NCBI GenBank assembly: GCA_021295815.1
Contig: JAGWBQ010000001.1
Span: forward strand, 25,165 to 89,164
From: Gemmatimonadota bacterium
GTDB lineage: Bacteria; Gemmatimonadota; Gemmatimonadetes; Longimicrobiales; Gaopeijiaceae
DNA: 64,000 nucleotides
Reading direction: 5' to 3'
The position numbers were made by a program, and so were the translations under genes. Positions within the stretch are counted from its first letter, which is position 1. Each line of letters starts with the position of its first letter. The notes below the pieces were generated by a model. That model did not search any database, was not told where the DNA came from, and saw only the letters and a program-made list of their open reading frames with translations. Below, in pieces: positions 271 through 5,025 of the stretch.

Positions 271-3200
271 TCATCCGAGCCTCCTGCCCTGATTCGTTTC
301 CTTTTCCTCCATCAACCGGCTTACCTCCTCCATACCCTGCAGCCACAGGTTCTCGACCGCGTAGTCCATGGGGGTCTTGCCCTCCCGGTCGAGCGCGTCG
401 GGATCGGCGCCCAGCTCGAGCAGCTTCGGGAACACGACCGGGTTGCGCAGGGCCGCGATGTGAAGCGGCGTCCGGCCCGCTCCGCTGCGCGCGTTCACAT
501 CCGCCCCGGCCTTTGCGAGCAATTCCAGCACGGTCGCGTCGGGGTTGAGGGCGGCCGCCCAGTACAGGGGCGTGGCGGCTGCGTCATGCATCCAGTCCAC
601 ATCACCGCGCGCGTGGATATCGGCTCCGCCTTCGATCAGCGCCGCGACGACGGCGGGGTTGGCGTTTCCCGCTACTGCTTCATGCAGGGGTGTCCGGTTT
701 CCCATCCTGGGAGGCAGGCCCCATTGCTGGCCCCAGGGGTTGGTATATCCAAAGACATCACTCAGTCCGTTCCACTCCCACACTTCCTGACTTGTGCCCC
801 TGGCATTCACCTCCGCACCCGCCTCCAAGAGCGCTACGACGACGGCGGGGTTCGGGTTCTTGCCGGCAGCTTCGTGGAGCGGGGTCCGACCCGCCGGCAA
901 CTTTGCATGAATATCGGCGCCCCTGCTCACGAGTTCCGCGATCAGCGCCGGGTTCGCGTTCTCGGCAGCCGCCCGGTGGAGTGCCGTCCTGTACCCCTTC
1001 GCCAACGCGTCCATCCGAGCTCCGGCCTCCAGCAACGCGACCGCGACCTCGGGATTCGCATTGCCTGCGGCCTCGTACAGCGGAGTCGCGTCCGTCGACC
1101 ATGCATTGATCCGCGCGCCAGCGGCGACCAGCGCGGCGATCACGGCAGGATTGGTGTTGTCACGGGCGGCGTAGTCCAATGGGGCATGGCCTTCCTCGTT
1201 TCGGGCCCGTACGTCCAACCCGGCACCCGCCAGGAGATTGATAACGGCCGGGTCCCGGGTCCACGTGGCCGCTACATGGAGGGGTGTGGAGCCATTCGGA
1301 TAAGATATCGTCCGACCAGTGCCGGTTCCGAACCACCCAATGTCCCTCATGCCCGTCATCTCCGCCCCCGCTTCCATACACGCGGCTACCTGCGCGGCCG
1401 TAGCCCCGGCGAAGAAAGTCGGTGTCGGCCACAACCGGCAAGCGCCCGGATCGGAAACCCTGCCCCAGTCGTCCACCGCCGTTCGATCGGCCCCGAGTTC
1501 CAGCAGGCGCCGGACGACGGCGGGACTGACCTGCCTCACGGCCCAGTGAAGGGGGGTCTCCCCGTTCTCGTCGCGCGCGTCCACGTCGGCACCGGCATCC
1601 GCCAGGAGCTGGACTACCGCAGGAGAACCCCAGGGCCCGGTAGCCGAATGCAGAGGCGTGGCACCTTTCTCGTAGCGCATCTCCAAGTCCGCCCCTGCCT
1701 CGAGGAGCATCCTGACGCTCTCGGGCCGGTTCGCCTTTGCTGCGTAGTGCAAGGCCGAACCACCACGATCGTCGGGAGCGTTGACATCCGCGCCGCGATC
1801 CAGCAGAGCCGAGACAACGGCGGGTACGCCGACGGCTTGGTGCAGCGGGGTTGCACCCGCCCGGTTCCGTGCGTCCACGTCCTCCCCGGCATCCAGCAGG
1901 GCGGCGATAGCACCCGGGGCGAAGGAACGATTCCAACCCAGAAGCCGCACCAGAGTATGCAGCGGCGTTTCCTCCGCTTCGCTGCGGGCGGTCAGTTCGG
2001 CGCCGGCCTCCAGACAACCCCGAATGCTCGCAGGTGGAGCCACGGCGAACAGATCGAAGCGCTCCCAGTCGCAAACCGGGGCCAACCGGTCCTCCGCCGG
2101 ATCGGTTTCCGGCGCTGCCCCCAGTTCCTGAAGTTTGTCTGCCAGTTGGGCGCTTCCCAACCTCCTGGCCCTCCCCAGCGGGGTCTCGCCACCGCTGTTT
2201 CGCAGTCCAAGGTTCGCCCCGGCACGCACCAACGCAACAGCCAGCGCCGTGTCGCGCTCCAACAGCGCCGTGTCGGCCGTCTCATGCGGGGGTGTCGGCT
2301 GCGGGGGGGCGCGAAAGAAGGGATTGCGACCGTTCACATAGTAGTTGGTGGACCGAACCGATCTGCGGCCGTATGCAACCACGAGATGCAGGGGAGTGTT
2401 GCCATTCTCGTCGCGCTTGTTGGCGTCCGCGCCGGCCTCCAGAAGCAGGCGTACGTTGGCGAGGTGTCTGGCTGCGGCTGCCCGGTGCAGGGGTGTTTCG
2501 TCCCTAGCGTTCAATCCATCGGGATCGGCACCGGCCGCAAGCAGGGCGGAAACTCGCGACGAATCGTCGCTGGCGCCGGATGCCAGGTGCAGAGGTGTGT
2601 CGCCGACACTGGCCGCCCTTTGCGGAAGCGCGGCGCTGGCAAGCAGGGGGAGGGCGCTGGCAGTCGGATACGTGGGGGCGTAGCCCGCCCTGGCGCGCGC
2701 GTTCGGGTCCGCACCCGCATCCAGAAGCGTGGCGATCAAAGGCACGGTGGCCTCGCGGGAACGGGAAAAGGACGCGACGTGAAGGGGAGTCCACCCCCTT
2801 CGGTCGCGTGCGTGCGGATCTGCTCCCAGCTCCAGCAGCCGGTCTACAACGGTGAGGTCGCCCCATTCGGATGCTCCATGCAGCGGAGTGCCTTTGGCAT
2901 TGTTCGGCACATTCGGGTCCGCTCCCACCTCCAGAAGCAGATTCGCGAGGCCCGCATTCCTCATTCGGACCACGTAGTTCAGGGGAGTCTCGTTGATGTA
3001 GTTCCGAACATCGATATCCCAGCCTGACTCCAGGCACGCCTTCAGGGTTTCCGCAGCGAGGGTCTCTTGGAGCCAGTTCTGCCAGTCGTTGCAGTTGTCG
3101 GAATCGGCACCGGGAACTCCGTCGCGATCGATACCGCGAACTCCGCCCGGGACACTGCGGACCTCGCGGGAGCCGGCATCGCGACCCGCGACCGTGCCAC

Positions 3201-4536
3201 GCTGGTTCCGCGCTGTCGAATCGGCTCCCAGTTCCAGCAGCTTCCCCATTACCGAGGGCTGCGGATTGCGGTTGGACCGGGCAGCGTGCAGGGGCGTGTT
3301 CCCCATGGCGTCCCGCGCATTCACGCCGGCACCGGCTGCCACAAGAGTCGCGATTGCCAAGGCCCGCCCGCCCTGCGCCGCCTCGTGCAACGGAGTGCGA
3401 CCCATCAGGTCCATCGCGTCTACGTCCGCACCCGCCGCCAGAAGCATCGCGACTCGGCGAGAGTCGTTCGGGTTCGCATGCAAGGGAGTTCTTCCCCAAA
3501 GATCGACCGCGTTCACATCGGCTCCGGCCGCCAACAGCAAGTTGACGATCTCCTCACGGCTTCCGTACCACACCGGGGTCGCCCCTTTCCAGTCCCGTGC
3601 GTTCACATCCGCCCCGGCCGCCAGCAGCATGGCCACGATGCCGGGGTTCGGCCCCCGCCCGGAGGACGCCCCGTGCAGCGGTGTCGAGCCGCTGTGGGTG
3701 CGCGCGTTGACATCCGCTCCCGCCTCCACCAGCAATGCCACGACGGCCGAGTCCGGCCTCCGATGTGTCCACTCGTGAAGCGGGGTTTCGTTGGCTGCGT
3801 TGGGATCCGCGCCGCGGGACGCATGATGCAAAGGCGTTTCGCCTCGGTCGTTGCGCGCGCCAATGTCAGCGGCCGCATTCAGTAGCACCCGGACGATTGT
3901 CGAGTCGCTGCGTGCAGCGGCGTGCAGCGGCGTCGTGCCCTCCCAGTCTCCCGCGTTGACGTTGGCACCTGCCTCCACCAGCACCCGAACGATGGCTGTA
4001 TCCCCCTCCCGGGCCGCCCGGTGCAGGGGCGTCCTGCCCCATTCGTCCCCGGCGTCGACATCCAGGCCGGCCGCCAGGCACGCGACAAGCGTGGCTTGGG
4101 TGGCTCTCTGGTGGAACGCCGACGTGGTCCAGTTCTCGCAGTTGGAAGGATCAGCCACTTCGCCGCGGTCGTTTTCCGCCATGGGATCCGCCCCGAGCTT
4201 CAGCAGTGTTGCACCCACCTCGGGATTCGAGTTGGACCACGATGCATGCAGGGGCGTGTTTCCGGCGGCGTCCCGGGCATTGGGATCGGCTCCCGCCTCG
4301 ATCAGGGCGACAACCACGTCCGGCTTCCGACTCGAGGCCGCAACTTCGTGCAGCGGAGTCCTTCCATTCGGGGCCCGTGCGTTCGGGTCCGCGCCGGCTT
4401 CGAGACAGCTCGTCACCTGTTCGGCGGTGGCGTTCCGGAAGAAGTTCGGGGAGCCCCAGCCCGTGCAGTCCACCTGGCCGGCGGCAGGCACCGCGAATAG
4501 GAGGAAGATGGATGCAGTCGAAATGAATCGCTTCAT
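271..4536 (-). CDS. Giant secreted ankyrin-repeat protein with five Cys-Trp-headed modules
   Basis: A 1421-residue protein made almost entirely of ~33-residue ankyrin repeats (G-x-TPLH-x-AA ... LLxAGADVNARD). It begins with a clear signal peptide (MKRFISTASIFLLFAVPAAG), so it acts in the periplasm or outside the cell, probably as a protein-binding scaffold. The repeats fall into five modules, each opened by a non-ankyrin header with a Cys, a Trp and a second Cys 19-20 residues later. First cysteines are at about residues 24, 133, 482, 822 and 1033; their partners are at 44, 153, 501, 841 and 1053. These ten are the only cysteines I find. Several modules end in ELGAD-x(2)-A and run into the next header. 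No transmembrane anchor is visible after the signal. The repeats are diverged in DNA, so it is an old array. Partner and function are unknown. Confidence 0.93.
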   Translation of the reverse strand: MKRFISTASIFLLFAVPAAGQVDCTGWGSPNFFRNATAEQVTSCLEAGADPNARAPNGRTPLHEVAASSRKPDVVVALIEAGADPNARDAAGNTPLHASWSNSNPEVGATLLKLGADPMAENDRGEVADPSNCENWTTSAFHQRATQATLVACLAAGLDVDAGDEWGRTPLHRAAREGDTAIVRVLVEAGANVNAGDWEGTTPLHAAARSDSTIVRVLLNAAADIGARNDRGETPLHHASRGADPNAANETPLHEWTHRRPDSAVVALLVEAGADVNARTHSGSTPLHGASSGRGPNPGIVAMLLAAGADVNARDWKGATPVWYGSREEIVNLLLAAGADVNAVDLWGRTPLHANPNDSRRVAMLLAAGADVDAMDLMGRTPLHEAAQGGRALAIATLVAAGAGVNARDAMGNTPLHAARSNRNPQPSVMGKLLELGADSTARNQRGTVAGRDAGSREVRSVPGGVRGIDRDGVPGADSDNCNDWQNWLQETLAAETLKACLESGWDIDVRNYINETPLNYVVRMRNAGLANLLLEVGADPNVPNNAKGTPLHGASEWGDLTVVDRLLELGADPHARDRRGWTPLHVASFSRSREATVPLIATLLDAGADPNARARAGYAPTYPTASALPLLASAALPQRAASVGDTPLHLASGASDDSSRVSALLAAGADPDGLNARDETPLHRAAAARHLANVRLLLEAGADANKRDENGNTPLHLVVAYGRRSVRSTNYYVNGRNPFFRAPPQPTPPHETADTALLERDTALAVALVRAGANLGLRNSGGETPLGRARRLGSAQLADKLQELGAAPETDPAEDRLAPVCDWERFDLFAVAPPASIRGCLEAGAELTARSEAEETPLHTLVRLLGWNRSFAPGAIAALLDAGEDVDARNRAGATPLHQAVGVPAVVSALLDRGADVNAPDDRGGSALHYAAKANRPESVRMLLEAGADLEMRYEKGATPLHSATGPWGSPAVVQLLADAGADVDARDENGETPLHWAVRQVSPAVVRRLLELGADRTAVDDWGRVSDPGACRLWPTPTFFAGATAAQVAACMEAGAEMTGMRDIGWFGTGTGRTISYPNGSTPLHVAATWTRDPAVINLLAGAGLDVRARNEEGHAPLDYAARDNTNPAVIAALVAAGARINAWSTDATPLYEAAGNANPEVAVALLEAGARMDALAKGYRTALHRAAAENANPALIAELVSRGADIHAKLPAGRTPLHEAAGKNPNPAVVVALLEAGAEVNARGTSQEVWEWNGLSDVFGYTNPWGQQWGLPPRMGNRTPLHEAVAGNANPAVVAALIEGGADIHARGDVDWMHDAAATPLYWAAALNPDATVLELLAKAGADVNARSGAGRTPLHIAALRNPVVFPKLLELGADPDALDREGKTPMDYAVENLWLQGMEEVSRLMEEKETNQGRRLG

Positions 4537-4814
4537 GGCTTTGAGGTGGTACTACTTCGTTGGACAGTTCAAGGGTAAGATTAAGATGTATTCCGGCCGG
4601 GTTTGAGAGCCCTCGGGAACCTCCGTTACATCAAAGATATCCCCCGGTAGCCGGGAGAGGAACCCGACCGGCGACCGGGAGCTGCCGGCGAGCGGGGAGC
4701 GCGTGCGGAGCTGGCGGACGGCGCGGCGCACCTCCGTACTGCGGCCTCCTGGTGTGCACTGCGGTGGGCGGGAAAATGTTCGGACCCGTGGACGAACGGA
4801 GCCTGCGGCCGCTC

Positions 4815-5025
4815 TCGCGACGCCGTGGTGTACCTTGGCGAACACCTCCGGCGCGGTGTCGAGCATCTGCCGCTTCCACGGGCTCACCTGGTTCGGACGA
4901 AGCTCATGCCGCGCGGCGATCGCCTGCACGCTGCCGCGCTCCCGGGGCGCCTCCAGCGCCACACGGCCCTTGACTCCGCCGTGAATCTCCGTCTCTTCCT
5001 TGTCTCTCGGTGCCTCCCGTCCCAT
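4815..5025 (-). pseudogene. Remnant of an IS3-family OrfA transposase (N-terminal helix-turn-helix)
   Basis: The reverse frame from the ATG at 5025 reads GRVALEAPRERGSVQAIAA then RHELRPNQVSPWKRQMLD and APEVFA. This is the classic start of IS3/IS911-type OrfA proteins (VALEAL...ELA..Y..HP.QI..WK). OrfA should continue with a leucine-zipper region (E..LY.KIG.L..E..FL), but after EVFA the frame becomes unrelated arginine-rich sequence, and I find no OrfB. The open frame runs on to 4552 by chance. It is therefore a truncated, probably dead fragment, a scar of a mobile element between the ankyrin gene and the next lipoprotein gene. The exact 3' edge is uncertain. Confidence 0.7.

Follow-up and report, generated by a model that had tools for sequence, protein, structure and literature searches.

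The Dot/Icm ankyrin effectors of Legionella (AnkY, AnkH, AnkG, and others) are long bacterial ankyrin proteins that are injected. The periplasmic AnkB-type partner of catalase is encoded next to the catalase gene. Secreted ankyrin repeats also occur in ankyphage proteins, which are said to modulate phagocytic uptake (Jahn et al., as described in a passage of PMC7064744). According to PMC8163846, sponge-associated MAGs, those of Gemmatimonadota included, are enriched in repeats of eukaryotic type such as ankyrins, and both marine genomes and genomes associated with sponges or corals are found within the Longimicrobiales (PMC10581226). Ankyrin scaffolds are described, in the abstract of PMC3308923, as folding without disulfide bridges.

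The window (the whole stretch of 64,000 nucleotides analyzed here) carries on its minus strand an ORF with its ATG at 4536 and its stop ending at 271, which encodes a 1421-residue ankyrin protein containing five cysteine-paired segments, here called headers. The protein resembles the Legionella effectors in being a long bacterial ankyrin protein but, in contrast to these injected proteins, has a putative Sec signal peptide; its best match to a Dot/Icm model was AnkY (335.2 bits versus an NCBIfam equivalog cut-off of 600), and all such models scored far below their cut-offs. No catalase occurs among the recognized neighbors that would mark an AnkB-type catalase partner. The protein shares secreted ankyrin repeats with the ankyphage proteins, which are, however, phage-encoded; two scans of viral contigs returned no header relative, phage records gave only generic ankyrin matches with less than 60% identity, and no phage genes were recognized among the neighbors of the gene. 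Overall, we consider that the locus is best explained as encoding a disulfide-pinned variant of the ankyrin repeat within an exported multi-module scaffold that is likely interaction-directed, and we assign this explanation a probability of roughly 0.7.

Gene layout and predicted fold of the headers

Ankyrin repeats cover most of the protein according to Pfam, with a PF00023 score of 486.6 bits (cut-off 21.1) spread over 14 stretches of tandem repeats of about 33 residues. The features of the gene and its product are listed in Table 1. No anchor or sorting domain was seen in the C-terminal region (residues 1380–1421).

Table 1. Features of the ankyrin gene and its surroundings, in window coordinates
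Feature	Position	Strand	Basis
Gene for exported ankyrin repeat protein, 1421 aa, five Cys-pair headers	271..4536	-	Pfam Ank PF00023, E 1.8e-152
Putative Sec signal peptide, residues 1–20 (MKRFISTASIFLLFAVPAAG)	4477..4536	-	Read by eye
Header 1, residues 22–52, Cys24/Cys44; N-terminal cap directly after signal peptide	4381..4473	-	Cys positions, alignment, AlphaFold
Header 2, residues 128–161, Cys133/Cys153; in line after GxVADP	4054..4155	-	Cys positions, alignment, AlphaFold
Non-ankyrin linker preceding header 3, residues 447–481	3094..3198	-	Sequence comparison with L109
Header 3, residues 477–509, Cys482/Cys501	3010..3108	-	Cys positions, alignment
Linker preceding header 4, residues 806–821, partly pLDDT <50 (fragment residues 120–125)	2074..2121	-	AlphaFold
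Header 4, residues 817–849, Cys822/Cys841	1990..2088	-	Cys positions, alignment, AlphaFold
Header 5, residues 1028–1061, Cys1033/Cys1053; in line after GRVSDP	1354..1455	-	Cys positions, alignment, AlphaFold
C-terminal cap, long final helix, residues 1380–1421	274..399	-	Sequence, AlphaFold
Transposase TnpA (IS66/IS3 type) N-terminal remnant, directly upstream of ankyrin gene	4798..5025	-	Sequence match

Two fragments were modeled with AlphaFold: residues 21–285 together with 26 relatives (pLDDT 92.6, pTM 0.83) and residues 692–1421 together with 24 relatives (pLDDT 86.0, pTM 0.78). In header 1, helix A spans fragment residues 10–15 and helix B residues 18–26, with Cys44 at fragment position 24. 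In header 2, a turn (113–115) precedes helix A (119–124) and helix B (127–135), and Cys133 and Cys153 lie at fragment positions 113 and 133. Headers 4 and 5 share the header 2 pattern, and every modeled internal header has a three-residue helical turn at or just before the first cysteine, then helix A, and then helix B carrying the second cysteine. The predicted secondary structure thus contains the paired antiparallel helices characteristic of PF00023 in headers 1, 2, 4, and 5, which contradicts the view, taken in an earlier sequence-only reading of this DNA, that the headers are not ankyrin repeats.

The models put about 26 residues into the inter-helix link of the headers, versus 15 in ordinary repeats. 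As modeled, a header comprises both helices of an ankyrin unit plus an insertion of about 11 residues ahead of helix A, and the headers are, on the same predictions, modified ankyrin repeats. The first cysteine sits in this insertion, and the second takes the place of a conserved core leucine close to the end of helix B, turning the VVxxLLEAGAD of plain repeats into VxxCLEAGAD. No PDB chain matched the Cys-W half of the header; among the matches listed, coverage starts at helix B and includes the generic part only.

The same earlier reading had proposed that each header could act as a rigid cap or hinge that splits the array into independent binding arms; in the form of flexible hinges or true domain boundaries, this appears to hold for some headers only. 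Residues just before header 4 have pLDDT values below 50. A non-ankyrin linker of 35 residues (447–481) precedes header 3, and the closest relative, L109, has this linker too; read in its two other frames, the linker gave no former header disrupted by a frameshift. Headers 2 and 5, on the other hand, continue directly from a full repeat through the short bridges GxVADP and GRVSDP, with high confidence throughout (block pLDDT above 90) and unbroken helix pairs, and the pTM of 0.83 for the two-header fragment argues for a fixed geometry there. A flexible linker therefore precedes header 4 only, and probably header 3.

Foldseek comparisons of the models bear on the same question. The matches listed for the model of residues 21–285 are rich in rigid DARPin fusions; the best of them, kinked DARPin–DARPin fusions, reach TM scores of at most 0.56, and the model of residues 692–1421 matched a 24-repeat ankyrin at 0.37, scores in which a kink and the insertions are not separable as causes. 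These values fit a predicted solenoid that is non-canonical overall. The kinked matches, like the loss of modules as units between relatives (see below), would suit hinges, but weighed against the continuous, confidently modeled joints at headers 2 and 5 they leave the hinge interpretation doubtful as a general description of the headers, although it is still a serious competitor.

Conservation and pairing of the header cysteines

All ten cysteines of the protein fall in the five headers, at exactly the positions given in the sequence-only reading, and the 1421 residues contain no other. The spacings within headers 1 to 5 are 20, 20, 19, 19, and 20 residues; a spacing of 19–20 is thus seen in all five adjacent pairs, compared with a maximum of three in 200,000 random placements of ten cysteines in 1421 residues. 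The C-x(1-2)-W motif, also described earlier, is found in every header (alignments A1 and A2). Header 1 shares 31–44% identity with the other headers of the protein, and the headers are homologous to each other.

The header profile was rebuilt with both cysteine columns masked, to keep the cysteines from driving detection. With this profile, both cysteines were present in 194 of 199 distinct full headers. The five exceptions comprise one plain repeat, two headers in which a cysteine is shifted by one or a few positions, and two (in L064 and L085) that are cut or weak at the second cysteine; at least three of the five are alignment artefacts. A separate cysteine-blind pattern found the first cysteine in 78 of 78 in-line headers, and the apparent losses of the second cysteine that it printed were register shifts still containing that residue. 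These two retention counts mean that relatives keeping only one cysteine of a pair, the outcome that the earlier reading had named as speaking against disulfide-locked headers, did not appear as a trend. The two header cysteines are therefore kept together across relatives, and on these alignments their pairing within headers is supported by conservation.

Cysteines are rare in plain repeats (14 in 1156 matches). Among 62 relatives of at least 600 residues, counted from the first header, the number of cysteines is even in 56 and odd in 6, and 35 have exactly two per header. A binomial value for the even counts would not be a true probability, because these relatives are paralogues and orthologues with common ancestry and not independent trials.

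The homology of the headers would also suit a recent duplication of one header within the protein, from which the cysteine layout would have followed without selection on the pair. This explanation was rejected: both cysteines are kept at only about 30–45% header identity across about 15 genomes, while the tryptophan, the phenylalanine, and other positions vary, and it is contradicted by the conservation data to the point of being very improbable. Conservation of the pair would be as expected if each header formed a disulfide, which we regard as putative. The cysteines might instead be ligands of a metal or a cofactor, or might remain unbonded as free thiols. However, each header offers two cysteines and no third conserved ligand, the other conserved columns being W, F, A, and G; there is no CxxCH; the cysteines are kept pairwise almost perfectly; and the genome of this exported protein encodes VKOR and a DsbA-like protein (see below). 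We consider metal binding or free thiols unlikely.

Export, relatives, and genomic neighborhood

The N terminus (MKRFISTASIFLLFAVPAAGQ) reads by eye as a Sec type I signal peptide, in agreement with what had been noted earlier from the sequence, and by the same inspection the protein carries the type I-like export signal expected of the secreted ankyrin ELPs of sponge symbionts. The N termini of relatives are type I signal peptides or lipoprotein-like. Within the clustered header proteins L057 to L076, some signals are lipoprotein-like (LFATACAGG, LLVAACAGA) and others type I-like, a pattern that, by sequence, would amount to mixed anchoring within one family. An oxidizing pathway is, by gene content, encoded in the same genome: a VKOR gene adjoins a DsbA-like gene on contig C28, and there are two further DsbA-domain matches. 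This genome also encodes three exported-looking ankyrin proteins without headers (L079:3644-5653, L080:4033-6006, and L082:3531-5393) that share a conserved terminal NN-H/R-x-C-x-x-C tail, which holds the sole cysteine pair in two of the three.

A search for the header in other genomes, which had been suggested as a check, showed it to be a genuine feature of a family: it was found about 190 times in related Gemmatimonadota, in large ankyrin proteins that are exported and whose genes mostly form tandem clusters. Several relatives have dozens of header matches (up to about 50 per genome) in tandem clusters of proteins of 1000–2000 residues. The five-header profile matched in 19 of 150 genomes of the phylum (4 of 75 genera), and a broader profile in 31 of 121 genomes of the family (3 of 40 genera). 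Searches covered the phylum Gemmatimonadota, save for one collection scan with a narrow alignment, which reaches only relatives of the ADPTHC form. That scan yielded the named relatives, almost all from Gemmatimonadota MAGs, with one Longimicrobiales chromosome among them; two contigs were binned elsewhere, one as Rhodothermaceae and one as Gammaproteobacteria.

The closest relative, L109 (Gemmatimonadota RHO3_bin_71), matches residues 293–1418 at 63% identity, and in its upstream frame one more header and a long array precede the counterpart of header 2. The reading frame of L109 changes inside the array, past that counterpart, at about positions 1700–2000, and L109 is for this reason taken to be frameshifted or misassembled. 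L104 has six headers versus the five in the 1421-residue protein, which, compared with L109 and L104, appears to have lost one complete module. From the extra header of L109 and the six headers of L104 it follows that whole modules appear to come and go between relatives, a sequence comparison that supports treating the modules as units. In the genome itself, a C-terminal fragment without the rest of the gene (L002, G000:C1:153717-153902), 68% identical to residues 1356–1417, is a probable remnant of a second copy.

The recognized neighbors of the gene are 3HCDH, ribosomal S21, M20 peptidase, and isocitrate/isopropylmalate dehydrogenase genes. No dedicated secretion partner or co-conserved neighbor was found among the flanking ORFs in the window. 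The TnpA remnant listed in Table 1 matches an ORF of the relative G044 with 78% identity across 49 residues. Lipoprotein-like ORFs lie between or beside header-protein genes (L057:1738-2922, L058:3302-4651, L061:7437-8729, L061:16536-17720, and L065:2269-3573), and these five have no Pfam match. A related lipoprotein-like family occurs in the vicinity of clusters in five genomes, one of them being that of the window (14 ORFs), and its tie to the ankyrin genes is putative.

The housekeeping genes next door, and a signal peptide combined with no visible surface anchor or sorting domain, would suit a periplasmic housekeeping role unrelated to hosts, such as that of a chaperone-like scaffold. A patchy family and expansion in tandem clusters are unlike such a scaffold, though, and some relatives are lipoprotein-like, so that we consider a housekeeping role rather improbable, if somewhat less so than metal binding. 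Cluster expansion and patchy distribution suggest an interaction role.

Proposed mechanism and comparison with known systems

In the explanation that we prefer, the gene product would be an exported multi-module ankyrin scaffold in which each header carries about 11 extra residues in the stretch that leads from the hairpin before it into helix A, with the first cysteine located in this insertion, at a short helical turn (C-x-x-W). After Sec export, a DsbA/VKOR pathway would oxidize both header cysteines, and the resulting disulfide would staple the insertion onto the repeat. The staple could make up for hydrophobic stabilization that is missing at N-caps and module joints and could protect the long array once it has left the cytoplasm, while the cysteine-free runs of repeats between headers may provide the binding surfaces. 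The protein would, most plausibly, be a modular binding array aimed at the surface of a host or a neighboring cell; it behaves like such an array in that relatives differ by the gain or loss of complete header modules. In this scheme we infer the covalent S–S bond, its stabilizing role, the final location, and the ligand. Host contact is plausibly the role of the exported ankyrin array.

A broader interpretation, which we put forward tentatively and at somewhat less than even odds, is that these proteins form a family of exported ankyrin proteins that is lineage-specific and expanding, with a disulfide-stapled repeat starting each module. The family could then provide marine Gemmatimonadota, some of them associated with sponges or corals, with a diversified repertoire for recognition outside the cell, and the header could be a natural way to keep very long arrays stable there.

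Exported ankyrin arrays are also described from sponge symbionts, as secreted, eukaryotic-like proteins (Nguyen et al. 2014, cited in PMC6372511 and PMC8163846), but the passages on them in these two papers contain no mention of disulfide headers. Ankyrin arrays in general (PF00023/PF12796, with DARPins as consensus designs) share with this protein the 33-residue helix-turn-helix repeats, the TPLH and GADVNA motifs, and the solenoid. Unlike them, it periodically contains a repeat that is modified by an insertion with C-x(1-2)-W and by a second cysteine in place of the helix B leucine. A recurring, conserved disulfide header would show bacterial adaptation of the ankyrin fold to an oxidizing extracellular setting and would give protein engineers a natural stapled cap. 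It would also single out, in the otherwise little-studied marine Gemmatimonadota, one exported ankyrin family for which a direct search for ligands could be made.
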